Virus record (IMG/VR): IMGVR_UViG_3300023184_000027
Location: 1 to 64,000 of that record
Source: a virus
Reading direction: 5' to 3' (one strand)
Length of the DNA stretch: 64,000 nucleotides
Below the pieces are notes generated by a model that was not told where the DNA came from, made no database searches, and worked only from the letters and a program-made list of their open reading frames with translations. The translations under genes were made by a program, and so were the position numbers. Shown in pieces: positions 697 through 53,546 of the stretch. Positions within the stretch are counted from its first letter, which is position 1, and the number at the start of each line of letters is the position of its first letter.

Positions 697-728
697 AAAC
701 CCTCACTTAACGGTGGGGGTTTCTTTTT
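697..728. terminator. Bidirectional rho-independent terminator
   Basis: A 10-bp stem (AAACCCTCAC with GTGGGGGTTT, one G-U pair) closes a 6-base loop. It is flanked by T-rich sequence on the plus side and A-rich sequence on the other. It separates the convergent genes ending at 686 (plus) and 727 (minus). Confidence 0.85.
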
Positions 729-1038
729 AAAATAAATTGAGGGATGTAATTCGTTTATCCGTAATTTTTTCAACAACTTCAGTCATCAAAGATTTTAATC
801 TTTTATAATCAATACCTAATTGATTTGTGATATCACTAATGGTTTTAATACTAAACGCCATATCATCACCTATTTCATCATAAATAATGATAATATCACC
901 ATTTCTTAACGAAACCCATTGTTCTTCTTCACCATAGGTATCGTTTCGTCTCATTTTAGATACCACTTTTTTCTCTAATGGACCAATAAATTTGATGATA
1001 ACATCAATTAATTTATTTTCAGTAATCAATACTTTCAT
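727..1038 (-). CDS. Leader-type (MKVLITE) small protein, unknown function
   Basis: This 103-residue protein begins MKVLITENKLIDVIIKFI: the recurring leader with I-T-E ending at residue 7, followed by an amphipathic helix. The middle has a beta-rich stretch (GDIIIIYDEIGDD), the usual build of this window's leader-type small proteins. It ends at the terminator shared with the plus-strand unit. No catalytic motif is visible. Packaging into the capsid is an inference from the leader only. Confidence 0.6.
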   Translation of the reverse strand: MKVLITENKLIDVIIKFIGPLEKKVVSKMRRNDTYGEEEQWVSLRNGDIIIIYDEIGDDMAFSIKTISDITNQLGIDYKRLKSLMTEVVEKITDKRITSLNLF

Positions 1039-1134
1039 ACTATTAAATACTATTATTTTCCATTATAATGTAATATAACCCAATATTAAGACATTTTTTT
1101 CCACTAAAAGTGGTATTTTGGCAAATATTTTCCA

Positions 1135-1527
1135 CTATTCTATTGTTTTAACAGGAATATTAAAGTTATCCCAAAACCAATCAATAAATGGTTTGTGCCA
1201 TCTATGACCAAATAAACCATTTAATTGGTCTAGTTTATCAGTGTCTTCAAACTCTAATATTGGAGATTTTTCAATCATTTCTTTTAAAAAAACAGGACTT
1301 AAAGTTTCGGTTTCTTCACTACGCCAATAATCCTCACCATACCATCTGAATAGAGTGTTATCGCCACCATCTTCATAATCATCTGTATAGAATTCTATTG
1401 CATAATCAACTTCATTACCCCAATCATCTATGCCTGGTGTCCATCCAATATTATCAACATCAAACATACTATTAATATATTTGAGTATTAAATCATACAC
1501 TTTATCTTCAGTTATTATAATTTTCAT
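1135..1527 (-). CDS. Leader-type (MKIIITE) protein with C-terminal W(F/W)xxNFNxPVKxI motif
   Basis: This 130-residue protein has the MKIIITE leader, an N-terminal helix ending in KYI, a central acidic beta region and a C-terminal helix-strand unit (FIDWFWDNFNIPVKTI). The closest relative in the window is the 133-residue protein at 22675, which shares the leader and the LFG-x-x-W-KP-x-x-x-WF ending. The box ATATTTAT lies exactly 4 bases before the ATG. Function unknown; one member of a large local paralog group. Confidence 0.65.
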   Translation of the reverse strand: MKIIITEDKVYDLILKYINSMFDVDNIGWTPGIDDWGNEVDYAIEFYTDDYEDGGDNTLFRWYGEDYWRSEETETLSPVFLKEMIEKSPILEFEDTDKLDQLNGLFGHRWHKPFIDWFWDNFNIPVKTIE

Positions 1528-1539
1528 ATTTATAAATAT
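1528..1539 (-). promoter_or_regulatory. ATATTTAT box, 4 bases before start codon
   Basis: Read on the minus strand, ATATTTAT is followed by 4 bases and the ATG at 1527. The same geometry is repeated at many genes in this window, which suggests a phage promoter giving a nearly leaderless mRNA. Confidence 0.5.
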
Positions 1540-2384: not shown

Positions 2385-2385
2385 A

Positions 2386-3093: not shown

Positions 3094-3111
3094 ACTATTA
3101 AATAATGTTTA

Positions 3112-3141: not shown

Positions 3142-3144
3142 AAA

Positions 3145-3597
3145 TTATATTTCTTCACCAAATAAATCATCTGTCCATCGTTCAGGGACAAGAACCACAA
3201 TATAACCTTTTGTTACATTAACAGCGGATGTTGGTAATAAGTTATTGATTTCTTCTAATAGTTCCTCATTTTCCTTAAAAACGATTCGTAATTTACCATC
3301 TTCAGCGGTATCAACAACTTTATGCTTATTATTTTCCATAATGGACTTGAAGTTTTCAATATCACCAAATTTATCTTCGGTTTCAATATCCAAATCACCA
3401 GTTAAAAATCTTTCAGGGACACTACTTTCACCTCCAGTTTTTAAATATTTAATTTCTTCGTCTGTCATTCCTTCAAGACCAACCTCATTATATAAATCCA
3501 AGATACTATCGTAATAATCGGTATCAAATTGTTCCGTCATAATTAATTTAATAATATCTTTTAATTCAGATTCTGTTAATTTTATAATCTTTGCCAT
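3145..3597 (-). CDS. Leader-type (IKLTE) acidic protein, unknown function
   Basis: The 150-residue protein begins MAKIIKLTESELKDIIKL, with L-T-E at residues 7-9 and a second candidate cut site (M-T-E) near residue 22. The rest is acidic and ends with a beta-rich part (VNVTKGYIVVLVPERW). ATATTTAT lies about 17 bases upstream of the start. The leader links it to the other possible capsid-targeted proteins. No family recognised. Confidence 0.6.
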   Translation of the reverse strand: MAKIIKLTESELKDIIKLIMTEQFDTDYYDSILDLYNEVGLEGMTDEEIKYLKTGGESSVPERFLTGDLDIETEDKFGDIENFKSIMENNKHKVVDTAEDGKLRIVFKENEELLEEINNLLPTSAVNVTKGYIVVLVPERWTDDLFGEEI

Positions 3598-3761: not shown

Positions 3762-3796
3762 ATATTAAATTTAATAAAAGTTAAATAACAAATCAA

Positions 3797-5479: not shown

Positions 5480-5851
5480 TTACCAAGTTCTACACGCCCA
5501 ATATCTCGCTTTCCATCTTGGACCAGGAGTATCACAATTCATTCTTGCTCTAAAAGATTTTCTTCTTGCTGGATTATTCTTTTTGATTACCATTCTTTTA
5601 CCTTTGGCGGATTTTCCTCCAAATCCAAAATTTACCTTAACAACATTTCCTTTGTCGTTCTTAACATACACTTTAAACTTTTTTATATCGCCTTGCATAA
5701 TTTTACCAAGTTGGACTTTTCGTCCCTGATATTCAGCTTCCGTTAGTAAATCACCAACAACAAAGTTGGTTTCCTCAACGGAGCCATAAAAACTATCGTC
5801 TATATTGTTAAATAGTTTTTCGTACTGTGATTCTGTAATTATTAATTTCAT
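5480..5851 (-). CDS. Leader-type protein with conserved basic RRKSFRAR...WKARYW domain
   Basis: The 123-residue protein has the leader MKLIITESQYEKLF, then a second candidate processing site (LLTEAEYQGRKV, about residues 35-46). A beta domain (KFKVYVKNDKGNVVKVNFG) follows, with a very basic end (ARRKSFRARMNCDTPGPRWK, then ARYWACRTW). From memory, this C-terminal domain recurs in unrelated large phages and usually follows an LxE-type site, which fits a virion or capsid role. Its start overlaps the stop of the leader-only ORF at 5848 (ATGA), so translation is coupled. Confidence 0.65.
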   Translation of the reverse strand: MKLIITESQYEKLFNNIDDSFYGSVEETNFVVGDLLTEAEYQGRKVQLGKIMQGDIKKFKVYVKNDKGNVVKVNFGFGGKSAKGKRMVIKKNNPARRKSFRARMNCDTPGPRWKARYWACRTW

Positions 5852-5946
5852 TTCTTTTCGTAATGAGTCATCGTTGGTTTATTCTCACCTTCGGCTAAAT
5901 AACCCTCCAATATCGTTTCTTGTCTTTCAGTAATTATAAGTTTCAT
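5848..5946 (-). CDS. 32-residue leader-only peptide (MKLIITE...)
   Basis: The minus strand encodes MKLIITERQETILEGYLAEG and twelve more residues, then TGA. The TGA overlaps the ATG of the 123-residue gene (ATGA). It has the full MKLIITE leader plus a second (L)-A-E tripeptide but no folded domain. ATATTTAT lies exactly 4 bases before its ATG. It may be a packaged peptide, a translational coupler for the next gene, or the stub of a decayed gene. Confidence 0.55.
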   Translation of the reverse strand: MKLIITERQETILEGYLAEGENKPTMTHYEKK

Positions 5947-7821: not shown

Positions 7822-8100
7822 TTATTCTGAAATATCTTCAATACCGGCATCAGGAAAATTATCTTGAAGGTATCTCAACATTAAATCATTTGAGTTTCCC
7901 CCAAAGAAATCCTCCAACTCATCTTCCATATCATAACTTGCAAATATAAAACTACTTTTATTTTTCCATCCAAAAACATCCCCGTAACTCTTTAAATTTT
8001 GAAACTCCTTATGTTCGGGGTCATAAATTAAATTTGTTCGGTGATTAATATATTTAACGAACGCATCGTACATTCTACTTTCGGTGATTAGTATTTTCAT
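7822..8100 (-). CDS. Leader-type (MKILITE) small protein
   Basis: The 92-residue protein has leader MKILITESRMYDAFVKYI, a central region with YGDVFGWKNKSSFIFASY and an acidic end (LRYLQDNFPDAGIEDI). The ending is a divergent form of the local W-x-x-x-xF-x-x-x-(V/I)-x-x-I unit. It lies 1 base after the stop of the gene at 8102 and belongs to the three-gene run 8775-7822. Confidence 0.6.
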   Translation of the reverse strand: MKILITESRMYDAFVKYINHRTNLIYDPEHKEFQNLKSYGDVFGWKNKSSFIFASYDMEDELEDFFGGNSNDLMLRYLQDNFPDAGIEDISE

Positions 8101-8101: not shown

Positions 8102-8425
8102 TTAATAATTTAAATCTGATATATAAAATCGTGAGTTAGTTAATTTGGGTTGGTCAAATTTATCGGCAACATATTCTTTACAAATACTCACCAATTCAGG
8201 GATGGATATACTAAACATATTTTTGACGATACCAAAGTCATCACCATTAAAGTTAATAATTTCAGTTTCTGTATCATAATCAAATGCAACACGACCATCA
8301 CCATTCATATATTCTAATAGAACATGGGGAGCCCTCATACTCATCCTTCGTCTCCCGTGTTTTTCATAACCTTTGAGAACCATATCAAAATATCTAAACA
8401 CAAGTTGTTTTATATTATTCATCAA
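8102..8425 (-). CDS. Small protein of the local paralog group, no leader
   Basis: The 107 residues begin MMNNIKQLVFRYFDMVLKGY, resembling the helix at the start of the proteins at 6218 and 22024. A strand (YDTETEIINFNGDD) matches the SPETEIVFYGGN element of the 6218 protein. It starts inside the stop of the gene at 8422 (ATGA overlap), so the two are translationally coupled. Confidence 0.6.
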   Translation of the reverse strand: MMNNIKQLVFRYFDMVLKGYEKHGRRRMSMRAPHVLLEYMNGDGRVAFDYDTETEIINFNGDDFGIVKNMFSISIPELVSICKEYVADKFDQPKLTNSRFYISDLNY

Positions 8426-8775
8426 GCAAAGTTATTTATGATATAATTTAGCCCAATACCCAAATGTTTAATACCAAGAATATTTAAAAAATCGGATTCC
8501 TCTATTTTACGATTTTGTTTTTCACTTAAAACCAATACACCATATTCTTTTTGAGGTTGGGCATAATAATTATTACCATCAATATGAAACAAATACATTG
8601 GACCAAAATTGTTAAGTAACCATCTAAACTCCTCTCTACCATCAGAGAACAAGTATTGACCTTTAGGTCCTAACTCAATCCAATTTGTAATCACTTCAAT
8701 ATGGTCAGACAAATCATATCCCACCTCCTTGGTAATTAAATCTTTTATTTTATTCTCCGTAATTATAAATTTCAT
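8422..8775 (-). CDS. Leader-type (MKFIITE) small protein
   Basis: The 117 residues begin MKFIITENKIKDLITKEVGY and continue with a beta-rich part (QYLFSDGREEFRWLL, then MYLFHIDGNNYYA). There is no recognised domain. It is the first gene of a coupled run of three. Start by ATG right after ATTAAT; the usual ATATTTAT box is not intact here. Confidence 0.6.
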   Translation of the reverse strand: MKFIITENKIKDLITKEVGYDLSDHIEVITNWIELGPKGQYLFSDGREEFRWLLNNFGPMYLFHIDGNNYYAQPQKEYGVLVLSEKQNRKIEESDFLNILGIKHLGIGLNYIINNFA

Positions 8776-8792: not shown

Positions 8793-9314
8793 TTAAAATT
8801 TTACTTTTGTTTTGATTGACTCTAAACCTTTACCAATAGCCTCAACCCATTTGTTTTGTCCTTTTAAACTATAGTAGTATTTTCCATTCTCTAACTTATA
8901 ATCATATGACTTATCATTGGTTGTATTTATCTTACTTGTCTGTAATTTACCACTATCTTGTTCCATTACCGATTTAAAACGACCAAGGTCTTTAGTTGTG
9001 ATTTCACCGGCGGAATCATCATGACAATAACCATCCCCTTTCTTACAAACCCAAATTGGAATGTTTTTTTCCTTAAGGTATCTTCCCATAGTATTATTAA
9101 AATCAACATTTGTCCAATTACCATCCAAAGGTAAATTAAGTTTGTAATATTTGTTAAAAAAAGCAGCTAGTTCTTTTGTCTCTTGAGATTTCGGTGAAGA
9201 CAATGCTTGAGGACTTAAAGTTTGCTGTTTTAATGCTTGTTCAGATAACATTTGTTTCTCCAATCTCATATTAGCTTCTTGGATATGTCTGATTTTACTA
9301 AAACTTCTATTCAT
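8793..9314 (-). CDS. Protein with Q-rich leader region, unknown function
   Basis: The 173-residue protein starts MNRSFSKIRHIQEANMRLEK, then has a glutamine/serine-rich linker and a globular part (NKYYKLNLPLDGNWTNVDF to the end). I-Q-E and L-S-E tripeptides occur within the first 25 residues, as in other leader-type proteins. The segment around NWTNVDFNNTMGRYLKEKNI suggests a small helical domain, reminiscent of peptidoglycan-binding-like helices but not clear. Function unknown. Confidence 0.5.
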   Translation of the reverse strand: MNRSFSKIRHIQEANMRLEKQMLSEQALKQQTLSPQALSSPKSQETKELAAFFNKYYKLNLPLDGNWTNVDFNNTMGRYLKEKNIPIWVCKKGDGYCHDDSAGEITTKDLGRFKSVMEQDSGKLQTSKINTTNDKSYDYKLENGKYYYSLKGQNKWVEAIGKGLESIKTKVKF

Positions 9315-9441: not shown

Positions 9442-10572
9442 TTATTTTATTTTTTTACTAATAGTGAGGATTTTATCTGTTGGTGAATAAACTGGTGGTT
9501 CAGGACTTTCCCAAGATTCACGACCTTGTATTATTTTATAATTACGGTATATCGGACCATTTGATATTAAAATAAAATCTGACTTATATGATAATTTAGG
9601 TGGTTTAACCCTTTTTGAAAATGGAATATAATACTTATCATCTAATTTATATATTCCCTCATTTTTGGCGTTAACCGGTTGGAAAATAATCCGTTTACCC
9701 TCATCTTCAACAACAACTACTTCAGAATAATCTGTTTTTGTTGAGGGACAAAAATTTTGAACAACTTTTGAATTAGGTAAGAATTTTTTAATATGAGGTT
9801 CATAATTACTTTTTGACATAAAAGTTGGTTTATAACTAATATTTTTGAGTAATGTATTTAAAAATTCACCTTTAAATAATTTATCTTTACTATCGTATAC
9901 CCATTGAACAAAATCATTATGTTCAAAAGTTTTCATTTGTTTAATATATGATTTAATAATTAAACTTATTGGGTCATTTTCAAATATAATGTAATTAAGT
10001 TTTGACCAACTAACACCTTTTTCATTAATAGAATTTGGTAGGGAATAAATATTTAAAAACCCTTCAGTTTTATCACAATACTTTGAATTGTAAACTCCGT
10101 AATTATCACTATAAATTTCTTTCAATGATTTTTCAATAATATTACGAAGGTCTTTACATTGATTGTTATCACAATAACCTTTGTTAGACCTATAAGCTTT
10201 AGAGCGTTCAAAAAATAATCGTTCCGTTTCTTTCTCAGATAACTTACCAATATGTCGTTCAAACTTTTCATCAAAATTAATATTATATTTTCTTCTAATA
10301 TCAGACAAATTCATATAAAAATTTGAATTACCTGATTTTTGAACCAAATCAGCATCAAATATATATTCTTTTCCTGTAGTTATATCAGTGAATATAAACA
10401 CTTCAGTTTCCGGTTTTTTTTCAAATCGTCCGGTTGATTTAAATTGTACCATATGAATACCAAATTGAGGTAATAGATGAGGTTCACTAAATCCATTAAA
10501 ATCAATATCCTGTGTTTGTTCCTCAGTTTCCTTTAATATTCTATACTGTTGTTCTGTTATAATAAATTTCAT
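9442..10572 (-). CDS. Large leader-type (MKFIITE) protein, unknown function
   Basis: The 376-residue protein begins MKFIITEQQYRILKETEE. A beta-rich first domain (VFIFTDITTGKEYIFDADLV) is followed by a helical middle with four clustered cysteines (YCDNNQCKDL and KYCDKTEGF). The second half contains YEPHIKKFLPNSKVVQNFCP, somewhat like the start of Vsr/DUF559-type nuclease folds, but I cannot confirm a nuclease core. The perfect ATATTTAT-N4-ATG geometry and the leader place it with the possible capsid-packaged set. Confidence 0.5.
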   Translation of the reverse strand: MKFIITEQQYRILKETEEQTQDIDFNGFSEPHLLPQFGIHMVQFKSTGRFEKKPETEVFIFTDITTGKEYIFDADLVQKSGNSNFYMNLSDIRRKYNINFDEKFERHIGKLSEKETERLFFERSKAYRSNKGYCDNNQCKDLRNIIEKSLKEIYSDNYGVYNSKYCDKTEGFLNIYSLPNSINEKGVSWSKLNYIIFENDPISLIIKSYIKQMKTFEHNDFVQWVYDSKDKLFKGEFLNTLLKNISYKPTFMSKSNYEPHIKKFLPNSKVVQNFCPSTKTDYSEVVVVEDEGKRIIFQPVNAKNEGIYKLDDKYYIPFSKRVKPPKLSYKSDFILISNGPIYRNYKIIQGRESWESPEPPVYSPTDKILTISKKIK

Positions 10573-17455: not shown

Positions 17456-17812
17456 TTATTCACACTCTTTAATAAATTTTGGGAATATATCTACCGGATG
17501 TCCTGTGAAATCATATATTATATTCCACACCTCATCTATTAAATTATCGTATCTAATCTGTACCGCTTGGGTTTGAGGCCAAAACTTGGTTCCTATTCCC
17601 CCGATAAATGTTATATCCACCCTGTAGTGTTCGTGTTCATAAATATTCTCCGGTAGTTTCGTCCTATTACTTGGATGTTTAACTTTTACACCACAGATGA
17701 TATCTTGGTTATCCTTAACCAACATCTTATTTAATAACTTCTCTAATATTGGGGACAAATCCTTATTTACTTCCTCCATTATTATTCTTCTTATGGTTGT
17801 TTGTAAGTTCAT
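17456..17812 (-). CDS. MNLQ-leader protein, unknown function
   Basis: The 118 residues start MNLQTTIRRIIMEEVNKDLS, a variant of the MNLQE leader with M-E-E at residues 12-14. The rest is a mixed domain (HYRVDITFIGGIGTKFWPQT, then a C-terminal VDIFPKFIKEC). It is the last gene of the 19282-to-17456 run of leader-type genes. No family recognised. Confidence 0.55.
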   Translation of the reverse strand: MNLQTTIRRIIMEEVNKDLSPILEKLLNKMLVKDNQDIICGVKVKHPSNRTKLPENIYEHEHYRVDITFIGGIGTKFWPQTQAVQIRYDNLIDEVWNIIYDFTGHPVDIFPKFIKECE

Positions 17813-17818: not shown

Positions 17819-18382
17819 TTAATAGAATGTTTTTAGTTTCATATAGGGTTCTAAACCATATTTGTCTATTATTTGTTTGAAGATTTGTTGTCTGTGTCTT
17901 AAACCTAATGTATTTTTTTGAGTAATAAAACCATAACCAAATCCTGAATCCCCACTTAACCCCACAACTTTATAATAGGGTTGGTTATGAAGTTTTATTG
18001 GGTATAATCTTGCGGTGAACTTATACATCATATGGTCTTTGGCTCCGAATCTAAAATCCCCCAATTCTTTTTCACCACGATGTTGTAGTCGTGTATTATT
18101 ATTTAACCCAAGTTTTTCAACCAACGCGTCATGTAAATATAAAGACTTTTTGTCTACCGACATATATGCAAGTGGTGTATGAGTATCTTCACTGAACTTC
18201 ATAATATCACCATCATAAAGAACACTTATTAAATAATCAATCCCACCGATTAATTTAGATGTTACATCTATCCCTAATTTTTTTAACATTGATTTCATAG
18301 AATCTTTTTTTGATTCAGATTCTTCGGATATAACCCCACCCATCATTTGTTTTATCCTGTTTGTTTGTTCTTGTAAGTTCAT
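17819..18382 (-). CDS. MNLQE-leader protein, paralog of the 19545 gene
   Basis: From the ATG at 18382 the protein has 187 residues and starts MNLQEQTNRIKQMMGGVISE. A KLGIDVTSKLIGGIDYLISV segment (about residues 38-57) matches KMGLYYTIKLFGGYDTIKNM in the 19545 protein, so the two are paralogs. The second half is beta-rich. An upstream extension of 24 codons exists, but ATATTTAT lies exactly 4 bases before the internal ATG. Function unknown. Confidence 0.6.
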   Translation of the reverse strand: MNLQEQTNRIKQMMGGVISEESESKKDSMKSMLKKLGIDVTSKLIGGIDYLISVLYDGDIMKFSEDTHTPLAYMSVDKKSLYLHDALVEKLGLNNNTRLQHRGEKELGDFRFGAKDHMMYKFTARLYPIKLHNQPYYKVVGLSGDSGFGYGFITQKNTLGLRHRQQIFKQIIDKYGLEPYMKLKTFY

Positions 18383-18715: not shown

Positions 18716-19282
18716 TTATTGAAGTCTTACAGGTATCTTATGTTTTGTTCCATCGGTTCTTGAATATACAGCATATTGTGGTGTCATTATCATTTCATTA
18801 TGCTCATCACCCAACATATTAATATAATCATTACCTTTGCCAGGTTTAAGATATGCAATAGTCATATGTGGATGATAGTCAGGGTAATCACTTGTGAATG
18901 GAAATTGTTTTAATTCCTCGTTTGTATCATTTAGATTATCCCCCATTATATCATACTTTAATACATCATACTTTGGGCTGTTGAAACAAGATAGGTTATG
19001 AGCTTTACAATTTGTATAACTATACTTATTTAACACATTTATTATGTCGTCAATACTCACCTCGTTATCGTGTAATCCGTATAATAATGTACAATGTGAA
19101 TCCGGTTCTAAACCAAACCCCTCTTCTTCGGTGTATAAGTCATCAGGGTTTATCTTATTGTGTAATTCCGTAATAGAATCAGGGTTAAAATATAACATCG
19201 CACAAGAATATGGATATGTTTGTTTGTTCTCATTTATCCCCATCATTGTTTTGATTTTTGTTAGCTGTTCGTTTAATTCCAT
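18716..19282 (-). CDS. 2H phosphoesterase (LigT/RNA-ligase-like) with leader
   Basis: The 188-residue protein starts MELNEQLTKIKTMMGINENK, the MNLQE-type leader. It then has the two H-x-T motifs of the 2H phosphoesterase superfamily: H63-C-T65 in DSHCTLLYG and H139-M-T141 in HPHMTIAYL. Family members open cyclic phosphates or 2'-5' bonds. Phage 2H enzymes of the Acb1 type destroy the cyclic signals of CBASS defence. Which substrate applies here cannot be told. With the leader, a role as an injected enzyme is a reasonable guess. Confidence 0.75.
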   Translation of the reverse strand: MELNEQLTKIKTMMGINENKQTYPYSCAMLYFNPDSITELHNKINPDDLYTEEEGFGLEPDSHCTLLYGLHDNEVSIDDIINVLNKYSYTNCKAHNLSCFNSPKYDVLKYDIMGDNLNDTNEELKQFPFTSDYPDYHPHMTIAYLKPGKGNDYINMLGDEHNEMIMTPQYAVYSRTDGTKHKIPVRLQ

Positions 19283-19544: not shown

Positions 19545-20009
19545 TTATTTGTAATAGTTTAATGTGTCAAGCATAAATAGGAAAACATCATTTAATGTGT
19601 GATTATCAAAATTTTTGTATTTCTCCTCAAAATCTGATTTATGATAACCCTCGTAGTAAACATCTATTACAGCAGATTCCGGGCCAAAATACTCTATCTG
19701 TCGTACCTCATCGCCTGATATACTATATGGGACAGGACTTAAACCTAATTCATATATAGAAATTCCGATTGTATTATAAGGTTTTGCTAAATGTTGGACT
19801 GAATCTTTAATGAAATCAATCTTATCTTCTTTTGTTAAATTAAAACTATCACCATACATATTCTTAATAGTGTCATAACCACCGAAAAGTTTAATGGTGT
19901 AATATAACCCCATTTTATCAATGATTTTTTGTATCTTTGCGGACTTATCGTCCTCATTGATAACCCCCATCATTTGGTGGATTCTATGTATATTCTCTTG
20001 TAAGTTCAT
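19545..20009 (-). CDS. MNLQE-leader protein, paralog of the 17819 gene
   Basis: From the ATG at 20009 the protein has 154 residues and starts MNLQENIHRIHQMMGVINED. The IDKMGLYYTIKLFGGYDTIK block is shared with the 17819 protein. It starts 1 base after the stop of the flavodoxin-like gene and is coupled to it. An upstream extension in the same frame overlaps that gene and is unlikely. Function unknown. Confidence 0.6.
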   Translation of the reverse strand: MNLQENIHRIHQMMGVINEDDKSAKIQKIIDKMGLYYTIKLFGGYDTIKNMYGDSFNLTKEDKIDFIKDSVQHLAKPYNTIGISIYELGLSPVPYSISGDEVRQIEYFGPESAVIDVYYEGYHKSDFEEKYKNFDNHTLNDVFLFMLDTLNYYK

Positions 20010-37149: not shown

Positions 37150-38183
37150 TATATGTAGTCAGGAAATATTTCATTTATATTTTCATTAATGTTATTATAA
37201 TCCGGATAATCAGGGATTCTAAAATCAAGACGAGGTTCTCCACCATCATCCATTAGTTCATTCATCATAGTTAACCAATTCCCTATATAATCAATATTAT
37301 ACTCATAACTTCCCCACAAATTTCTATCCCCAACATATTTTTTAATTGAGTTCTTAACTTCATTGGGGTTAAATTTGATATAATAATATTCAATAAGTTG
37401 GTCAGGATAATTTCTTTTAGGTTCTGATAACCATTGTGTTGAATTAGTATCAAAAAAAGTCTCTAATTCATTCATAACCATATCGTAAATTTCAGATTCT
37501 AACGCGTTATTATAAGCATTGTTATGAATGTTATATAATTCACTTTCTAAATCCTCTAAATAACCTTCATTCATCAAATAGTTCATTGATTCCTCATCAC
37601 CTATAACATCACCAACATTATCAGATTCTAAATAAAAAACACCCTCATCATCTACATAATTTTTAAATAAATCCGGACTATCGTCATCAACCTCAACCTT
37701 CCAATTGGTTAATATATCTAAAATATATGTTTTTAATAAGTTAACATTACTAGGATTTAATTCACTAATAACATCACGATAAACATCATCTGTTGTATTA
37801 TCATATGGATGCCAACTATCTTCACCCAATACCGATATTACTATCTGAGCTGTAGTTAAATCTCTACCTCTATCATCAAATAATACCGATAAATCTTCTC
37901 GGTCACCCATTTTTAAATAATAACCATCTTCTTTTTGAACAATATTTGATAATTGTTTTATACATTTTTGAAGAACCTCCTCACTACCTAATGTGTTAAT
38001 CATATAGTCAAGTAATTCTAGTTGTTCGTCCTCTAATTCACCAATAAATGGGTCAATTAAATGAATTAAGTTTTTAGTTTTGAAGAATCTTAATACACTA
38101 TTTATATCACCAAATATATCAACAAGATTATTAATTTCTCCTCCATTAAATTCCTCAACATATTTTAATAATTTATCTGCCAT
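37149..38183 (-). CDS. Acidic helical protein, unknown function
   Basis: The 344-residue protein is strongly acidic and helical (KYVEEFNGGEINNLVDIFGD and similar). There are possible short internal repeats (VDIFGDINSVLRFF, LDYMINTLGSEEVL). It overlaps the start of the next gene by 1 base and the stop of the 38173 gene by 11 bases. No leader of the usual type. Function unknown. Confidence 0.5.
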   Translation of the reverse strand: MADKLLKYVEEFNGGEINNLVDIFGDINSVLRFFKTKNLIHLIDPFIGELEDEQLELLDYMINTLGSEEVLQKCIKQLSNIVQKEDGYYLKMGDREDLSVLFDDRGRDLTTAQIVISVLGEDSWHPYDNTTDDVYRDVISELNPSNVNLLKTYILDILTNWKVEVDDDSPDLFKNYVDDEGVFYLESDNVGDVIGDEESMNYLMNEGYLEDLESELYNIHNNAYNNALESEIYDMVMNELETFFDTNSTQWLSEPKRNYPDQLIEYYYIKFNPNEVKNSIKKYVGDRNLWGSYEYNIDYIGNWLTMMNELMDDGGEPRLDFRIPDYPDYNNINENINEIFPDYI

Positions 38184-38712
38184 AATATCTTTTCCTTTTA
38201 CTCGTATATTCCGGTGTTCCGTAGATAACTTTTATTCCAGTGTTTGTTGTTATGTTATCTTTAAAATAATCATTTATACCCCAATCTACCTCATCTCTTA
38301 TTTCCCACCCAAAAATATCATCATTTAATGCGTCCTCTAATGTCCTTTCTCCACCACCCAAATTAACACTACCCGACATATCATCTACCTTTATTCTAAC
38401 AACAACAAATGGTTCATCATCGTCTAAACCCCAATTATCAATATCCACAACCTCAAAAAAGAAATCATAATTACCATAATCATCTATATGATGGGGATTT
38501 TGAAGTAATAAAGATTTTGCTAACTCTTTTGCTTGGTCATTACCTCTAAACTCAACTAAATATTTATATGCTTGGTCATAAGTAACCATTGGGTTACCAC
38601 TATCCAACCCGAACAAACTAATAAAAGTCTTATCTACCTTCCATTTTCCGGTCTTATCCCAATATTTGAAAAAGATGTTCTTTAATTTGGATTCTGTCAG
38701 TATAAATTTCAT
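38173..38712 (-). CDS. Leader-type (MKFILTE) protein
   Basis: The 179-residue protein begins MKFILTESKLKNIFFKYWDK, with L-T-E at 5-7. It has YDFFFEVVDIDNWGLDDDEP with FVVVRIKVDD in the middle and ends WGINDYFKDNITTNTGIKVI, another form of the shared ending. It heads the minus-strand run 38712-36784. Function unknown. Confidence 0.6.
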   Translation of the reverse strand: MKFILTESKLKNIFFKYWDKTGKWKVDKTFISLFGLDSGNPMVTYDQAYKYLVEFRGNDQAKELAKSLLLQNPHHIDDYGNYDFFFEVVDIDNWGLDDDEPFVVVRIKVDDMSGSVNLGGGERTLEDALNDDIFGWEIRDEVDWGINDYFKDNITTNTGIKVIYGTPEYTSKRKRYYGR

Positions 38713-40727: not shown

Positions 40728-41666
40728 TTAATATATAAATTCAAATGTAGAATTATCCTCTGATAAATACTTTTCATTACTTGAGATTATTTGTCGTTTT
40801 ATCCCATTTTCAACCTCTTCAACAAATCCCGGAATATTTTGGTAGTCATTATCAACAACCATTTTATTATTAACAACTTTACCGGCTTTAATTATTTTAA
40901 CAATAATTTTAATTTTCCCATCTTCTTCTTTAATATCTGTAATAGTAAAACTTACTTTTTTTGCTGTATCACCATAACCTAAAGTCAATAATTTTTTAGA
41001 ACCAATTAATTCAGATTTAATTTTTGTTGTAAAATTTACCACTCTTTTATTATTGATATCCTCTAAAGTATAATCACCGTTCATAATTCCTTTAATTTCG
41101 TCTTGAGTAGCTCTTATAACATTACTCTTTAAATCCGAACTATAACTTATCGGATTAACCTGAGACATTTGTTTTGCAGTCGCCATCGAATATGTATCAG
41201 AGGATTTAAACCATTTATCATTAATAAATAAATAAACCGGGTACCAGCCATATGATGTTATAACATAATACCATTCATTTTTTTTATTAACATCCCACTT
41301 ACCTTCAATATTTGAACCCTTAAAAGGAATTTTAGCTGAACTATATTCTGACGCTTTATTATTTGGAGTCTTACTTTGTTTAAATAATCTATAATCTTTG
41401 AAGTTCTCTTTGGTTAAATTTTCATAGTCCCCATCTTCCCTAAAATTCGCCGTATAAACCTCATAGTAGAATAACGCATCTTTAGATGGTAACCCAAAAA
41501 CATCCATCATCGATTTAATTAAATCAATTAATACTTTTTTAGTTTTTGTTTGATGTTTGTGTTTGTTAAGGTATTTGAAAAGTAATATTTCTTTTTTTGA
41601 TAAAGGATTTTCATTTTCACCACCCTCAAGTTGTTCTTTTAATATTTTCTTAATTAAATCTCTCAT
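40728..41666 (-). CDS. Leader-type (MRDLIKKILKEQ) protein, unknown function
   Basis: From the ATG at 41666 the protein has 312 residues and starts MRDLIKKILKEQLEGGENEN, nearly the same leader as the 25825 protein. The rest has a helical part, a WYYVITSYGWYPVYLFINDK block and a beta-rich end (KKVSFTITDIKEEDGKIKII). Near the C-terminus PGFVEEVENGIKRQII resembles the VEDxIxNGVKxT repeat unit. It starts inside the end of the ferritin-like gene. The 18-codon upstream extension overlaps that gene and is not favoured. Confidence 0.55.
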   Translation of the reverse strand: MRDLIKKILKEQLEGGENENPLSKKEILLFKYLNKHKHQTKTKKVLIDLIKSMMDVFGLPSKDALFYYEVYTANFREDGDYENLTKENFKDYRLFKQSKTPNNKASEYSSAKIPFKGSNIEGKWDVNKKNEWYYVITSYGWYPVYLFINDKWFKSSDTYSMATAKQMSQVNPISYSSDLKSNVIRATQDEIKGIMNGDYTLEDINNKRVVNFTTKIKSELIGSKKLLTLGYGDTAKKVSFTITDIKEEDGKIKIIVKIIKAGKVVNNKMVVDNDYQNIPGFVEEVENGIKRQIISSNEKYLSEDNSTFEFIY

Positions 41667-41667: not shown

Positions 41668-42267
41668 TTAGAAATAAGTTTGCTCAAAATATAATACTTG
41701 GAATTTATCGTTCTTGTCAATTAAATTACTAGCGTTGATTAAATCATTGTATTCTACAACCGCATTTTTTTGAAATTTTCTAAATTTAGTTAAAACATCA
41801 AAAGTTGTAATATCATCATTAAATAATGATTGTGAGTTTTTATTATACTCATTCATTAAACCTAACTCCATTTTATATGCTCCGTGAACAATATCAATTA
41901 GATTAGAAAAATCGTGTTTAGTTGGAGCTTGGGGTATTTCCGGTTGAACATTAAAGTCTACCATATATTCTTGTAGAGTCTGAGCATGTGTTAATTCATC
42001 TGACGCCTCATTTGTGAAAAATTCTGCCGCTTTCTTATAATTCATATCCTGACACCAATTAGCCGCCGCTCTATAAAAATAATGTGCTGTGTATTCATCT
42101 TTAATTCTATCAGTAAGAATTTTGATTGTTTTTGTATCTAATTTATATAAGGTAACCTTACTAATTTTATTTAATGTGTTATCACTTTCAACAATCACTT
42201 CGTTATTGGATAATTCCATATTCTTAATATTTTGAAACATTTTATCGGTTAATGTATTTTTTTCCAT
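41668..42267 (-). CDS. Ferritin-like protein
   Basis: From the ATG at 42267 the protein has 199 residues. A four-helix ferritin-like core lies at about residues 60-180: ILTDRIKDEYTAHYFYRAAA, FFTNEASDELTHAQTLQEYM, DIVHGAYKMELGLMNEYNKN. E-x-x-x-H...E-x-x-x-E-x-x-H-A-like residues could form a di-iron site. Ferritin/bacterioferritin-like proteins of this type store or oxidise iron. A 10-codon extension upstream begins with TTG and is unlikely. A ferritin-like gene in a phage region is unusual. Confidence 0.7.
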   Translation of the reverse strand: MEKNTLTDKMFQNIKNMELSNNEVIVESDNTLNKISKVTLYKLDTKTIKILTDRIKDEYTAHYFYRAAANWCQDMNYKKAAEFFTNEASDELTHAQTLQEYMVDFNVQPEIPQAPTKHDFSNLIDIVHGAYKMELGLMNEYNKNSQSLFNDDITTFDVLTKFRKFQKNAVVEYNDLINASNLIDKNDKFQVLYFEQTYF

Positions 42268-42286
42268 CTTTTTAATCTTAATTATT

Positions 42287-42601
42287 TTATTTACCAATTA
42301 TTATATCACTATAATCTAATTTACTCATACCATCAATTTCTTTCTCGTCAACAACCTCATCATACATAAATGCTTTTACAACAGATGTCACACTTTCTTC
42401 AGATTGAGCAATTTTACTCTCCATCCAATCCTCAAGTTGTTCTCCATCTTCTAAATGTTCCCACATTTTATGAGCTAAAGTCGCTATTATAAATAATTGT
42501 TGTTTAGCCATATAAGAACCTTTACCATCGTTTTCTTTAATGGTTTTCATTTTTGTTACCAATTTTTCAAATTGTTTTTCAGTAAGTATAATGTTTTTCA
42601 T
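42287..42601 (-). CDS. Leader-type (MKNIILTE) small acidic protein
   Basis: From the ATG at 42601 the protein has 104 residues, starting MKNIILTEKQFEKLVTKMKT. It has a helical block (LEDGEQLEDWMESKIAQSEE, then VTSVVKAFMYDEV) that I associate with a small conserved phage protein. ATATTTAT lies 13 bases upstream. It precedes the ferritin-like gene in the same run. Function unknown. Confidence 0.6.
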   Translation of the reverse strand: MKNIILTEKQFEKLVTKMKTIKENDGKGSYMAKQQLFIIATLAHKMWEHLEDGEQLEDWMESKIAQSEESVTSVVKAFMYDEVVDEKEIDGMSKLDYSDIIIGK

Positions 42602-45603: not shown

Positions 45604-47013
45604 TTATTTTTTTGTTTCAATTTTACTTTGTAATACTTTCACAAACTCATTCTGAATCATTTTAACAAACTTTACATAAGGAGAATCGTCAGAATCCGGA
45701 TTGTATTTATAATCACCTTTTGGTGGACGAGCGCTTCTACCCATAAAATTTAATCCCGATATATTTGTAATACATTTGTGTCCTCCACTATTAGATTGGA
45801 TAAAGTCCCAAGCATTTACTTTAATATCATCCAACATCTTTCTATGTTCTTCAGGTAATTCAGAAAAAGGTTTTTCCATCATCTCACCAATGTGAACTAA
45901 TTTTCCCTTACCATCTTCCATTGTCTTATATTCTTTACCATATAAAGCAACAAAATCTTTAAAAGTAAACCCAACTGATTCTCCACTAAAATCTTTTGAC
46001 GATTCCGATATCCATTTAATCGTTGATAATGGAATTTCTCTTTGTTTTAATTGGTCTTCCCATTTAGATAAAACTTCTTGAGCTATCTCACCTAAATTAA
46101 CACCTTTTAATTCTCTTTCTTTTTTGAATGGATTACAAGATGCTTGAACTAATCCTAATGGCCAAGCAATAACTATAAAGTCAGCATCAGGATTATTTTT
46201 AAATGGAGTATATCTATCGTAAGAACCTGGTTTAAACATTGACCCACCACCATACTGAACAATAATATTACCCAATACTTTAACATTGGGATTGGTTTTC
46301 ATTGACTCAACATAATCTTCTTTATTTTTTTCAAGTTGTTCAGGTTTTGCATATCCTTTCTCAACCATTATTCTTTTGATGTTGTGTAATATGTTTAACA
46401 ATGATGGAGTTGATTTCATAACCAACTCATCTAAAAACCCAGGTTTGTTTTTAAACGCTAACAACAATTTATTAGCAACTAATCCCATCGCCGTTTTATT
46501 TTTAGATAATGATTTTTCTTTATCTAATCTAAATAAATAAGAAATTACTTGGTCAACACTAATATCATTTATTGAGTAATTAGCAGAATCCACAGTAGAA
46601 ATAAGTAATATATCCTCATTTGGAAATATATCTCGTGGAGAGACTATTTGAGATAATGTTTCAACATTTGACCTAGAAGGTCTAAAAGATGTTGATGTTG
46701 TTTCTTCCGCACCAGCTTGTCTATCGTGGTGGTCCGTGTGAATCATAAACATTGGTTTACCGTGAGCAAAATCTACTAATACCGGCATAATCTCACCACT
46801 AGCGTCAGGTTTTTTAACTGCAAATTCTTTATCACCGTATTGGATAATTTCACAATCAACAACTTTAATACCATTACTTTCAAGATATTGTTTCATAGCA
46901 ATTGCTGAAACAACACCATCAAGGTCCATATGATAATATATCTTAGCCTTCTGATATCTTTTAGCGAGAGATTTTATTTCCCTTAAACCACTTTCTTTAA
47001 TTAATTTTTTCAT
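45604..47013 (-). CDS. DHH-family phosphoesterase with leader
   Basis: The 469-residue protein starts MKKLIKESGLREIKSLAKRY (I-K-E at 5-7). It has the DHH motifs H28-x-D30-x-D32 (YYHMDLDGVVSA), D81 in LVDFAHG, and D94-H-H96 in HTDHHDRQ. A later region with SNSGGHKCITNISGLNFMGR provides the glycine-histidine (DHHA1-like) part. Such enzymes cut short oligonucleotides or cyclic dinucleotides. With its leader it may be an injected enzyme acting on defence signals; this is speculation. Confidence 0.75.
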   Translation of the reverse strand: MKKLIKESGLREIKSLAKRYQKAKIYYHMDLDGVVSAIAMKQYLESNGIKVVDCEIIQYGDKEFAVKKPDASGEIMPVLVDFAHGKPMFMIHTDHHDRQAGAEETTSTSFRPSRSNVETLSQIVSPRDIFPNEDILLISTVDSANYSINDISVDQVISYLFRLDKEKSLSKNKTAMGLVANKLLLAFKNKPGFLDELVMKSTPSLLNILHNIKRIMVEKGYAKPEQLEKNKEDYVESMKTNPNVKVLGNIIVQYGGGSMFKPGSYDRYTPFKNNPDADFIVIAWPLGLVQASCNPFKKERELKGVNLGEIAQEVLSKWEDQLKQREIPLSTIKWISESSKDFSGESVGFTFKDFVALYGKEYKTMEDGKGKLVHIGEMMEKPFSELPEEHRKMLDDIKVNAWDFIQSNSGGHKCITNISGLNFMGRSARPPKGDYKYNPDSDDSPYVKFVKMIQNEFVKVLQSKIETKK

Positions 47014-47014: not shown

Positions 47015-47962
47015 TTATATCAAACCCTTCACCGCATTTCCTAACAATGGTGCCAATAATGTTGTTATTGGGTCAGACCCTGTTTTAGGTTGAGTTGGAG
47101 GTGTTGCTTTCATTTCCTGATTTTCACCACCAAATTCACTATTAAATAATTCTTGATTTTTTGAGTCACTATTAAATTTTGCAACTTTTTGTTCTACATC
47201 CGGAACCTTTTGTTCCAATTCATCCGGACCAACAAAATTATGAATACCTAATGTATCTAATAACGCCAAATACCACTTACTTCTTCTCATCAATGACCTT
47301 GTCGCCGCATTACCACCAATTCTTGGGACACCACCAACAAGTCTATTAAGGAAGGATGGTTTTAACGCCTCATAACCTCTGAAAGCCTTGAATTTACCTG
47401 TCGTACCCATTTCTTTACTTGCTTTAGTAAATAATTTCACATATTCTTCCAATAAATTAACAAATCTACTACCTAAATAAGGAACTTTACCAATAGAAGA
47501 CCTTAATGTAGTTATTAATTTCTCACCCCAAGCCGGAGATTTTTCTACCATTTTAGCAATTGGTCCACCAACTGATTTGGCAGCACCAGCAACTTTAACA
47601 GCATCACCAGTAAGTGTCGCCGCTTTAAATGCTTTAGCTCCTTCACCACCTAATTTCATAACACCCACAACCGGTTTAGCTATAATATCACCAAAAATAG
47701 GTAAAGCAGCTATAAAAGATAAAATTGCAAACAATTTATCTCCTTGTCTCCAATAACTAATACCATTAACTAAATCCACAACACCTGTTGGGTCGAATAT
47801 ACCCGCAATATCACCAACGGTATTATACCATTTTGATTCTGAAAGTAATTTTTTCTTTTCAGGGTAAAGAGTTTTCATTACCTCAACAACAAAAATTTTC
47901 TCACCACGAGTTAAACCTTCCCACTTTTCAGTTAACTCATTAATTTGATTTGATTTTTTCAT
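47015..47962 (-). CDS. Leader-type protein with glycine-rich amphipathic region, possibly membrane-active
   Basis: The 315-residue protein begins MKKSNQINELTEKWEGLTRG. The region WYNTVGDIAGIFDPTGVVDL followed by VNGISYWRQGDKLFAILSFI resembles a pattern seen in pretoxin-like and phage internal proteins. It is followed by alanine/glycine-rich amphipathic helices. This could be a pore-forming or DNA-injection protein. No membrane span is long enough to be sure. Confidence 0.45.
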   Translation of the reverse strand: MKKSNQINELTEKWEGLTRGEKIFVVEVMKTLYPEKKKLLSESKWYNTVGDIAGIFDPTGVVDLVNGISYWRQGDKLFAILSFIAALPIFGDIIAKPVVGVMKLGGEGAKAFKAATLTGDAVKVAGAAKSVGGPIAKMVEKSPAWGEKLITTLRSSIGKVPYLGSRFVNLLEEYVKLFTKASKEMGTTGKFKAFRGYEALKPSFLNRLVGGVPRIGGNAATRSLMRRSKWYLALLDTLGIHNFVGPDELEQKVPDVEQKVAKFNSDSKNQELFNSEFGGENQEMKATPPTQPKTGSDPITTLLAPLLGNAVKGLI

Positions 47963-47964: not shown

Positions 47965-48324
47965 TTAATCTAACCCCAAGAAATGAATACCTTTATCAAT
48001 AATACTACCTTCTTGAGATACACAACTTTTGAATATTTGAACATCCGAGTCAGGCATTTTACTTTGTGTTGAAGGTCCCCAAATACCGTCCACAGGATAA
48101 ACACCAATTTTAGATTGGTATTTACTCAATGCTTGTTTAACACTATCACCCAAAAGACCATCAACTTTTAGTGGTTGATTCTTATCATCTCTGTGTCCTT
48201 TTTTATTTAAAAAACATTGAATACCCTTCTTTAATTCAGGACTTTCATTTTGTTCAGTAACCAATCCGTATATAGAACGGATGTCACTTTTTTCTTCTTC
48301 GGAAATTATAAATCTTTTTGCCAT
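47965..48324 (-). CDS. Peptidoglycan-binding domain protein with leader
   Basis: The 119 residues start MAKRFIISEEEKSDIRSIYG (I-S-E at 7-9, V-T-E near 22). The rest is a PG_binding_1-like domain: LKVDGLLGDSVKQALSKYQS, then GVYPVDGIWGPSTQSKM, with the two D-G-(L/I)-x-G-x-x-(S/T) units. It probably binds cell-wall peptidoglycan during entry or lysis. It is adjacent to the possible membrane-active protein, which fits a cell-wall penetration module. Confidence 0.65.
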   Translation of the reverse strand: MAKRFIISEEEKSDIRSIYGLVTEQNESPELKKGIQCFLNKKGHRDDKNQPLKVDGLLGDSVKQALSKYQSKIGVYPVDGIWGPSTQSKMPDSDVQIFKSCVSQEGSIIDKGIHFLGLD

Positions 48325-51018: not shown

Positions 51019-51187
51019 AATAATCTTTCGCTGTTTTACTTTCTACAATAATACCGGATTCTATCAAAAAATCCAGCTCTTTTTTTGTTTCTTCAATATT
51101 CTTTTTAAGAATATACTTTGAAATGTAATTAATGTGGATTGGTTGTCTTAATTTACCAATCAAATTACTAATTTGTTTTTCGTCCAT
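51005..51187 (-). CDS. Small winged-helix-like protein
   Basis: The 60 residues (MDEKQISNLIGKLRQPIHIN, then KKNIEETKKELDFLIESGII) suggest a helix-turn-helix with wing (VESKTAKDYYVV). It overlaps both neighbours and is part of the coupled run. It may bind DNA or protein; not established. Confidence 0.5.
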   Translation of the reverse strand: MDEKQISNLIGKLRQPIHINYISKYILKKNIEETKKELDFLIESGIIVESKTAKDYYVVI

Positions 51188-51368
51188 AATTAAGTTTTTC
51201 TTTAATTTTATCTTCAGTCAATCCTTTCATATACCATTTATAAACTTTGGACGATATTTTATCTGATAGAATCAACATATCCGATTTAAACAGCAAAGTT
51301 AATCCTAAATCATTATTAAAACAATTTTTTATTGATTTTTTATCAATTATTTTTTTGTTAAATCCCAT
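51168..51368 (-). CDS. Small helical protein
   Basis: The 66-residue protein (MGFNKKIIDKKSIKNCFNND at the start, VYKWYMKGLTEDKIKEKLNY at the end) is basic and helical. It overlaps the downstream start by 20 bases and the upstream stop by 1. The ending suits a helix-turn-helix. Function unknown. Confidence 0.5.
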   Translation of the reverse strand: MGFNKKIIDKKSIKNCFNNDLGLTLLFKSDMLILSDKISSKVYKWYMKGLTEDKIKEKLNYGRKTN

Positions 51369-52138
51369 TAAGACAATAATCTTTTATTTTGTTTTCCACT
51401 TTGACTTATATACGCTAATATTTTCCTTTTAAAGATTGGTACTAATGTTTCCTCTAACGGAAAAATATCACTACAAAAAACTTCAAATAATGGATGTGAT
51501 TCTTCATTATTCTTTTCATAAGTTTTAGAAAATTTAGATATAATTTGGGGAATTGTCAAATCGTCTTGGATACCTTCGTAAACTAATTTTAACGATGTTT
51601 TAGTTTGATTCTTTGTTTTGTAAATTTTTCTTGTAGTATATTGCCAAATATATAATTTATCCGGTAATTTGTAGTAAAAAAACCCTGACTTGTTTGATAA
51701 ATTATTTTTGTTTTTTTTCATCACAACATCTATGGAATCATAAACAATACTCCAAATAGATTTTGCAAAATTAAAATAGTCGTATAATTGGGGTTGACTA
51801 TTTTTTAAAATTTTTCGGTATTCAATTACTTCTTCGTCCGCTAGCACGGGAATATCTTTAACTTTTAAATCTGAAAAAATTAATTCATCATCTTTTGATG
51901 ATAATTTTTTATCAATATAAAGTATTTTGTTTTGTGTCAATAAGGTTTGCATATTACCCAAATGTAATGAAAGCTCAATAAACATTGGGTAAACCTCCAT
52001 TCTCTCAAGATGTTTATTCATCTTTTGAAAATAGTCTAATAAGACATATTGTTTTTGTTCTGCATCAAGCACACCATCAAATAACCAATCGGTATTCATT
52101 ATAAATGATGTCTTTTTATTTTTTTGTTTCTTTTCCAT
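51368..52138 (-). CDS. Conserved large-phage-type protein (FIMNTDWLFDG)
   Basis: The 256-residue protein has TSFIMNTDWLFDGVLDAEQK followed by QYVLLDYFQKMNKHLERMEV and LSLHLGNMQTLLTQ. I believe related proteins occur in other large Bacteroidetes phages, with unknown role. It is the first gene of the seven-gene coupled run 52138-48368, which ends with the methyltransferase. Confidence 0.6.
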   Translation of the reverse strand: MEKKQKNKKTSFIMNTDWLFDGVLDAEQKQYVLLDYFQKMNKHLERMEVYPMFIELSLHLGNMQTLLTQNKILYIDKKLSSKDDELIFSDLKVKDIPVLADEEVIEYRKILKNSQPQLYDYFNFAKSIWSIVYDSIDVVMKKNKNNLSNKSGFFYYKLPDKLYIWQYTTRKIYKTKNQTKTSLKLVYEGIQDDLTIPQIISKFSKTYEKNNEESHPLFEVFCSDIFPLEETLVPIFKRKILAYISQSGKQNKRLLS

Positions 52139-52187
52139 ATATTATTATATTAATTATATGAAAATATATTAAAGAAATGAATAGTTT

Positions 52188-53546
52188 TTAACCAACTCTC
52201 ATAACATAATATCTAGTATTGTTAACAACTACATCATCATATGTACCATCGTATCCATTCATCATACCCCAACCATCATCATCAACTAATCCTTGAGCTA
52301 AAGCATCTTTATCAATATAATCCTCAATACTTAATCCAAAATCACTCATATAAGATGTAATATTATTCTCAACATCTTTTAACATTGAGTCTACCTTATT
52401 ATCAATCATATCTTGGGATGGTTCCATATCAACCTCAATATTATCTAATTCTTCTTGAAGATAGTCTATGTGGTCTTGTGTTTGTTCATATTCTGTTGAG
52501 TCCGAATCATCTATATTTCTTAATCTTTCTTCATATTCTTCAATTTCAGATTCAAGTTGTTCTTTCCTTTCTTCTTGTTCTGAGGTTAACTCAAAATCAT
52601 CATCACTAAAATAGACATCCGGTTCGTTAGATATATCATTTTCATAAAATTCTCTAAAATAATCAAGAACCTCATCTTCGTTAATATAATAATCAATAAA
52701 ACCACTTCTAAACCCCTCAACACCTATTTCATCAATTAAATTTTTTGCGTAATCTAACGCAGAACTTTCCATCTCATCTTCATCACCAACAGAATATTCT
52801 CTACCTTTAAATCCTGGTAGTAAAACCTCAAATTGGGATAAACCATAATAACTGTAATCACCAGGGTACATATCGTAAACATCCGCAACATCTTCTGTTA
52901 ACCCATCAATTTCTTCTTGAACTTCCTCAATAGTATTTAATATTTCAACATTTTCATCGGGGTCACCTTCTCTATCTTCATCTTCATATTGAGCTTCAAG
53001 GTCTTCTTTCTTTTTTATTAATACCGATAATTTTTCTTTATCATCCTCATCTAAAACTTTTACATCACCCTCTTGTTCTAAATATTCTAATAACGCTTGA
53101 GCCTTCATACCTAACTCGTCTTCCTGTTCAAGGTTCCAATCATCACCATCTCTATATTCATTCATTGTTTGTTTCTTATGATTCAATTCCTCCAATTCTC
53201 GTCTTTTTTCTCGAGGTGAACCGTAATCAGTAGTATAACTCTGAACCTTTATATTTGAAATATCAGACACCATAGTATTACTGATATTTAAATAACCATC
53301 AATATAACCAATATTACCTAATGAGGTTGTTGGAGTATTCGCAAGATTTAAGTCATCAGTTATCCATAATGGTTTTCCTCCAAATTTTTTAAGATTCGTT
53401 ATAGCTTTTCCATTATAACTAGTTAAAACCATTAAATCCGTATATTCTTTAGGCGTCATTTTATAATAATCGTCCTCAACTTGTTCAACAATTGTTTTAA
53501 TAAAACGAAATAACCCTTCTTCTGTAAGTCTAATTTTTCTGCTCAT
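52188..53546 (-). CDS. Leader-type (RLTEEG) protein with LRR-like part and acidic coiled coil
   Basis: The 452-residue protein starts MSRKIRLTEEGLFRFIKTIV (L-T-E at 7-9). An LRR-like part has LWITDDLNLANTPTTSLGNI followed by GYIDGYLNISNTMVSDISNI. A long, very acidic coiled coil (LEAQYEDEDREG, ERKEQLESEIEEYEERLRNI) follows. ATAAATAC (one change from the box) lies 4 bases before the ATG. It may be a structural or packaged protein. Confidence 0.6.
   Translation of the reverse strand: MSRKIRLTEEGLFRFIKTIVEQVEDDYYKMTPKEYTDLMVLTSYNGKAITNLKKFGGKPLWITDDLNLANTPTTSLGNIGYIDGYLNISNTMVSDISNIKVQSYTTDYGSPREKRRELEELNHKKQTMNEYRDGDDWNLEQEDELGMKAQALLEYLEQEGDVKVLDEDDKEKLSVLIKKKEDLEAQYEDEDREGDPDENVEILNTIEEVQEEIDGLTEDVADVYDMYPGDYSYYGLSQFEVLLPGFKGREYSVGDEDEMESSALDYAKNLIDEIGVEGFRSGFIDYYINEDEVLDYFREFYENDISNEPDVYFSDDDFELTSEQEERKEQLESEIEEYEERLRNIDDSDSTEYEQTQDHIDYLQEELDNIEVDMEPSQDMIDNKVDSMLKDVENNITSYMSDFGLSIEDYIDKDALAQGLVDDDGWGMMNGYDGTYDDVVVNNTRYYVMRVG

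Follow-up and report, generated by a model that had tools for sequence, protein, structure and literature searches.

N-terminal leaders ending in (I/L/V)-x-E as probable capsid-targeting propeptides in large aquatic T4-like phages

The window analysed here, 64,000 nucleotides comprising bases 1–64,000 of the 207,952-base virus record IMGVR_UViG_3300023184_000027 (31% G+C), belongs to a large, aquatic, T4-related phage whose host is probably a member of the Bacteroidetes, and many of its proteins begin with short shared leaders containing (I/L/V)-x-E. Judged by sequence comparison, these leaders are probably T4-type capsid-targeting propeptides cut by the prohead protease gp21 (predicted cuts are marked ↓). 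A leader of about 7–31 residues, mostly forming an amphipathic helix, would draw its protein into the prohead core, gp21, a protease of family S77, would cut after the leader-terminal (I/L/V/M)-x-E, and the freed body would remain in the head and be ejected with the DNA into the next host. The leader families would be interchangeable on unrelated cargo, including an Acb1-like enzyme of the type acting against the cyclic oligonucleotide-based antiphage signalling system (CBASS), and some cargos would be polyproteins with domains separated by the same site. Phages of this kind share the leaders, use them as modules, place the site exactly at domain junctions, encode gp21 and carry matching sites in gp23 and gp22; core binding, prohead cleavage, packaging and ejection are what we infer.

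The leaders fall into several families. Those of the window type are MKxIITEsQYxxLxE, LTESDLxRIVKRVIxE, MNLQENxxRIxxMMGxxxE, xxTEEEKxRILxLHExATKxxYLxEQ and DLIKKILKE, and relatives add FDLKKFLxENKLTxNSxLLxE and MKxIKLFEEFIxE. The initial annotation had counted about 29 unrelated leader proteins in the window. Its list largely stands, with 27 of the 29 open reading frames (ORFs) bearing the kind of leader assigned to them, but only about 24–25 are clear: ORFs 47015 and 27042 have weak leaders, that of 17456 is without the MMG core, and that of 8793 (MNRSFSKIRHIQEANMRLEKQMLSE) represents a separate type. "Unrelated" describes most of the proteins and is slightly too strong, the pairs 1135/22675, 25148/25499 and 17819/19545 being paralogues. 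Genes were called by the longest-ORF rule, and the true start is a downstream ATG in six ORFs (5848, 17819, 19545, 34674, 40728 and 42287). The ORF names used so far give the lower coordinate of each ORF on the minus strand; the leaders are at the opposite ends. Leaders are also present beyond the window in the rest of the record, for example at 67405, 150567, 151001 and 151405.

Leader patterns at real starts were compared with those at internal methionines of the same proteomes (the record, four relatives and Flavobacterium phage immuto). The short MK-hh-(T/N/S/K)E pattern occurs 86 times at starts against 8.7 expected from internal methionines, the long LTExxLxxIIxxIxE pattern 24 times against 2.0, RIxxMMG 12 against 0, EEKxRILxLH 13 against 0 and DLIKKILKE 4 against 0, an enrichment of about tenfold or greater for the anchored patterns. 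A pattern-free comparison by BLAST of 40-residue windows, covering 977 proteins from five related genomes, yields 189 pairs among proteins with unrelated bodies for the first 40 residues (77 families, with one cluster of 52 proteins), compared with 25 pairs for residues 46–85, 25 for mid-protein windows and 13 for the C-terminus. Together, the two tests rule out chance or AT-rich composition as the source of the leaders. Synonymous codon differences within leaders are 0.41–0.61 for Ile, against 0.57 for random codon pairs, and are lower for Lys, Thr and Glu; since synonymous codons vary, the likeness appears to be kept mainly at the protein level and not to reflect recent DNA copying.

Degenerate DNA patterns for three independent leader types were run against IMG/VR, with counts in two of the three being samples. 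Among the matches listed, the LTESDL type is N-terminal in 131/131 and spans 69 body families; (L/I/V/M)xE follows within the next 16 residues in 123/123, against 30/123 in the control, and the P1 residue is residue 22 in 96. The FDLKKFL type is N-terminal in 131/137 listed matches (51 families) and has the motif in 122/126, against 30/126 in the control, at a position varying from residue 17 to 33; here the motif was counted beyond the anchor, which itself contains LxE. For the KLFE[EQ]F type, 119 of the 143 listed matches have the motif, against 13/143 in the control, over 66 body families. Retention of a motif at variable spacing resembles the behaviour of a protease site. The tag is not specific to the phage of the window but turns up at hundreds of loci from aquatic T4-like phages. 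Across 257 Gb of cellular genomes, there are two occurrences of the LTESDL pattern, one a chance match and the other an orphan leader from a Bacteroidota assembly. The orphan, a 53-aa ORF (MKKIIKLTESDLYRIVKKVISEQ; locus L728, ~2165–2330), lies amid bacterial-looking genes and is perhaps a phage remnant. With a 23-aa leader as query, tblastn against named phages found 0 matches even at E 10, the query being too short for power.

Domain junctions locate the predicted cut. A KOW-like module of ~50 residues, found in ORF 26432–27040 (module at 26432–26584, minus strand, with the internal site TLSE↓M directly before it), is present at many loci, where it either directly follows a 15-residue leader (MKIIITEDQYGQLTE↓MIKL) or lies within longer proteins. 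Of the 27 distinct contexts, 25 have (L/I)xE exactly before the module; 16 contexts are N-terminal and 11 are internal to multidomain proteins. In one phage a thioredoxin has the leader MKKVITLTENDLVRLIKKVISE↓Q, ending VISE↓Q; in two others it is leaderless, and the alignment begins at residue 24. Other multidomain junctions bear the same site (LNESLNFKSVISE↓G and INE↓S), as does an Fe/Mn-type superoxide dismutase polyprotein outside the window (G000:C1:154496–156034), in which VISE↓G precedes an additional domain; relatives encode this domain as its own gene, with (I/L)TE at the N-terminus. The dismutase protein of the relative G005 has an extra N-terminal metallopeptidase-like part with HEWVHEYQH. 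The KOW and thioredoxin junctions rule out cleavage at the first ITE in all leaders and place the likely cut for most at the second (L/I/V/M)xE. The initial annotation had put the cut after (I/L/V)-x-E; comparison supports that motif well, but it is usually the second one, at residues 10–31, and the first ITE, at residue 7, would fit a helix N-cap.

The same body can also exchange leaders. The body encoded by ORF 18716–19282 (cargo at 18716–19228, minus strand) follows the leader MELNEQLTKIKTMMGINE↓N (19229–19282), assigned from homologues and a structure model. It matches PF23474 above cutoff, and its two HxT-type motifs (HxT and HMT) are invariant. The AlphaFold (AF2) model has a mean predicted local distance difference test (pLDDT) of 88, and its best Foldseek matches are a phage Acb1-like phosphodiesterase (9q2g) and Acb1 (7t27), at moderate template-modelling scores of about 0.5–0.6; matches to other 2H enzymes are nearly as good. 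Motifs and model together show a 2H phosphoesterase closest to the phage Acb1 enzymes, predicted to be of anti-CBASS type. In the model, the leader helix spans residues 3–13, pLDDT falls below 50 at 14–19, including the E18 site, and the folded body starts at residue 25. Among homologues of this body there are at least six distinct leaders, all with (I/L/V)xE at their end. One of these, MKHIKLFEEFIAE↓, is very close to the annotated 10-aa propeptide of T4 IPII, MKTYQEFIAE↓A. Such natural leader swaps on the Acb1-like and thioredoxin bodies are suggestive of head targeting.

A prohead protease was not found in the fragment record of the window but is encoded by relatives as gp21 (S77). In window-type relatives these proteins match PF03420 (E 1e-23 to 1e-28), and gp21 of relatives matches the solved T4 prohead protease 5jbl at E 3.5e-16. 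Their conserved ELNHPESS and GISSRGVGS blocks, which we take to be the active-site His and Ser regions, align with T4 gp21. Close relatives of 282, 309, 203 and 158 kb were found via UvsX (78–84% identical), and the closest relative found, a 322-kb record (G046) in which two window proteins have counterparts with 95% and 85% identity, encodes gp21, gp22 and gp23 in neighbouring genes. All five window-type relatives have QASFLINE60↓A or SYLINE60↓A in gp23, and gp22 of relatives contains ELVKESL(T/S/K)E with the candidate site ESLTE↓Q, so that gp23 and gp22 bear the same kind of predicted cleavage site as the leaders. Above the family cut-off, gp21 is present in 21/25 large leader contigs versus 3/12 random large contigs (Fisher p 0.0008). 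Wherever a leader record was tested for both genes, gp23 was always accompanied by gp21, and records without gp21 lacked gp23 as well. The portal gp20 homologue of one relative (G002:C1:202751–205567, locus L126) contains a ~300-aa insert, intein-like with an HNH endonuclease (CIAGDTKIATPDGFITIKEL).

Taken together, gp21, the gp23 and gp22 sites, the junctions, the leader swaps, the leaderless homologues and the T4-like leader on an Acb1-like body support a shared T4-like packaging tag, as the initial annotation had proposed. Several observations weigh against it. In eight window leaders the ITE at residue 7 is the sole site, and some of these belong to one paralogous family, in which the N-terminal ITE could simply be part of the family's own structure. 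The motif (L/I/V)xE is itself loose. A Pfam survey of 80 representatives of leader-bearing families gave scattered weak matches and few recognisable functions, and many packaged proteins of phage SPN3US are uncut (PMC10052503), so packaging and cleavage are not necessarily coupled. In the 208-kb record of the window, gp21, gp23, portal and large terminase were not found; because terminase, portal and capsid genes are present in relatives, the record is a fragment without the head module, which explains why it has no protease. As for the short MKxIITE family, its domain stands directly after INE↓S in two fused proteins, which would imply a cut at residue 7, less certain because a hidden Markov model (HMM) of the domain finds leaderless copies (some profile boundaries are misplaced). 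Residue 7 is plausibly the cut only in this small MKxIITE↓N family; the T4 Alt propeptide has about 7 residues (PMC9026906).

Three other explanations bear on the same observations. That the leaders guide proteins to the prohead or scaffold uncut, or mark assembly factors that, like T4 gp67 and gp68, are digested together with the core and never injected, is unlikely: the uncut SPN3US head proteins and the resemblance of leader C-terminal halves to the gp22 N-terminal region (IVKRVIKEQ versus LVKESLTEQ) speak for it, but (L/I/V)xE is kept at varying distance and at internal domain junctions, and thioredoxin and the Acb1-like phosphodiesterase make unlikely scaffolds. It is improbable that the leaders are tags for a purpose other than the head, be it localisation to the membrane or the phage replication compartment, interaction with a chaperone such as GroEL, or regulation through translation or degradation. 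Short amphipathic helices serve many roles and the T4 gp23 N-terminus, according to the title of a cited reference, binds GroEL, yet such a tag fails to predict the constant terminal (L/I/V)xE, its use between domains, the match to T4 or the perfect gp21–gp23 pairing among leader phages. Ordinary paralogy or fusion, with the ITE leader as the first strand and helix of one duplicated small domain family, would account for the true paralogues among short-leader ORFs (1135, 22675, 151001 and 151405; 25148 and 25499) and for the leaderless copies found by the domain HMM. It covers at most about 8 of the 29 ORFs, however; other leaders sit on dissimilar bodies, and a given body can bear various leaders or be leaderless, which refutes paralogy for the long leader types and makes it highly improbable as the general explanation.

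The capsid-targeting sequence (CTS) of T4 is the nearest known system. In IPI, IPII, IPIII and Alt, it is a 7–19-residue N-terminal propeptide ending in a Glu site cut by gp21, which trims short N-terminal peptides from IPI–III and Alt (PMC9958956, PMC9026906) and removes 65 residues from gp23 (PMC9958956). T4 and the leader phages have in common a short N-terminal leader on unrelated or diverged proteins, gp21, gp22 and gp23. Unlike T4, the leader phages have several distinct longer leader families on tens of proteins per genome, versus about four, and the site also lies at internal junctions of multidomain cargo. The giant phages phiKZ and SPN3US package many head proteins, among them ejection proteins with propeptides for the prohead protease, and make Glu-specific cuts, and gp53 and gp54 share an N-terminal 15-mer; their motifs are A-x-E in SPN3US and S-x-E in phiKZ with propeptides often >100 aa and most packaged proteins left uncut, in contrast to (I/L/V)-x-E and short leaders here. 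The nearest cultured relative, immuto (NC_055915, Immutovirus), has an annotated gp21 and a gp23 with IVSE59↓A, but its UvsX is only 38% identical, and its own leaders (FDLKKFLxEN.., EQFKRMQxLAGIITE and KKSQLRxII) differ from the window's families. UvsX, the tail sheath, the tail tube and other genes in the record look T4-like by position and likeness to annotated immuto genes, and several names given to its replication and tail genes are putative on that basis. The bS21-encoding Bacteroidetes lake phages (PMC9723584), large and freshwater with a terminase–portal–protease–capsid block, are probably the same group as the phage of the window; the abstract of that paper does not mention leaders.

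The CTS concept is Black's, and T4 literature already suggests the CTS as a general T4-like route (PMC9026906), which qualifies the initial annotation's remark that it had not seen such a tag described for this phage type. No paper naming these leaders was found in open PubMed Central (PMC) text; supplements, preprints and subscription papers lay outside that search, and an earlier mention may exist. CTS papers in PMC text concern almost only T4, SPN3US and P1. Within open PMC text, the novelty appears to lie in the scale, in having several leader families that are interchangeable, in the use at junctions and in the cargo. On balance, it is more likely than not that a large aquatic T4-like clade uses a modular, sequence-readable code, in which several interchangeable leaders load tens of different effectors per virion, including counter-defence enzymes and multidomain polyproteins split by the head protease within the capsid, and that the injected, pre-made set can be predicted from the genome. 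Injected head proteins are normally learned phage by phage through proteomics; if the tags are what we propose, sequence would suffice to list such proteins in hundreds of phages that are uncultured. Most of the listed proteins would have no assigned function, and factors for early takeover and anti-defence are likely to be enriched among them, one predicted injected protein already being Acb1-like. The leaders would also be a source of new peptides for capsid loading, and multidomain cargos hint at polyprotein processing inside the capsid.

All leaders listed here for the window lie on the minus strand and, unless noted, are assigned from sequence. Among the short ones, MKVLITE (1018–1038, ORF 727–1038) is without a second site, and MKIIITE (1507–1527, ORF 1135–1527) and MKIVITE (23056–23076, ORF 22675–23076) belong to the small paralogous family. 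MKILITE (8080–8100, ORF 7822–8100), MKFIITE (8755–8775, ORF 8422–8775), MKLLIKE (25463–25483, ORF 25148–25483), MRIVIKE (25808–25828, ORF 25499–25828) and MKFILTE (38692–38712, ORF 38173–38712) are of similar length, as are MKKLIKE (46993–47013) on a DHH-like phosphoesterase (ORF 45604–47013) and the weak MDIKISE (27399–27419, ORF 27042–27419). MKNIILTE (42578–42601, ORF 42287–42601, true start 42601) is assigned from an N-terminal match and sequence. The weak leader MKKSNQINELTE (47927–47962, ORF 47015–47962) has homologues with MNRLVLTE or MKNIIITE.

Longer leaders begin with MAKIIKLTESELKDIIKLIMTE↓Q (3532–3597, ORF 3145–3597), of the long LTESDL type with its site at residue 22. ORF 5480–5851 has the leader or pro-region MKLIITESQYEKLF...GDLLTE↓A (5738–5851), and (L)xE↓A/G precedes its body in four relatives too. 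The small domain of this ORF ends NPARRKSFRARMNCDTPGPRWKARYWACRTW and also occurs in longer proteins of relatives and immuto, always with xE↓A or xE↓G directly before it. MKLIITERQETILE↓G (5905–5946) opens a small ORF (5848, true start 5946), MNRSFSKIRHIQEANMRLEKQMLSE↓Q (9240–9314, ORF 8793–9314) is 77% identical over 26 aa to G001_235905, a protein with an unrelated body, and MKFIITEQQYRILKE↓T (10528–10572, ORF 9442–10572) is of the 15-aa type. MNLQTTIRRIIME↓E (17774–17812) belongs to ORF 17456–17812. N-terminal matches and sequence support MNLQEQTNRIKQMMGGVISE↓E (18323–18382, ORF 17819–18382, true start 18382), MNLQENIHRIHQMMGVINE↓D (19953–20009, ORF 19545–20009, true start 20009), MNLQENIIRIREMMIAE↓E (20734–20784, ORF 20011–20784) and MKDLIKKILRE↓E (26398–26430, ORF 25825–26430). 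MKIIITELQYKLLQE↓Q (26996–27040) leads ORF 26432–27040, for which a suspected ADP-ribosyltransferase like T4 Alt was dropped (AlphaFold pLDDT 44), and MKLIESIKQIISE↓A (33154–33192) leads ORF 31600–33192. MRDLIKKILKE↓Q (41634–41666) leads ORF 40728–41666 (true start 41666), whose relative G002_303337 is fused to a leader and a second domain. N-terminal matches and sequence also support MRIIVNETQYIKLFE↓T (35235–35279, ORF 34674–35279, true start 35279), MAKRFIISEEEKSDIRSIYGLVTE↓Q (48253–48324) on a peptidoglycan-binding protein (ORF 47965–48324) and MSRKIRLTEEGLFRFIKTIVE↓Q (53484–53546, ORF 52188–53546).

A ferritin-like protein (41668–42297; PF00210, E 6e-17) adjoins leader genes and has no evident leader of its own. 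Two giant proteins of 2025 and 2126 aa with collagen-like GTSGTSGSSG repeats are encoded at 57749–63826 in the window and at G000:C1:201441–207821, respectively.

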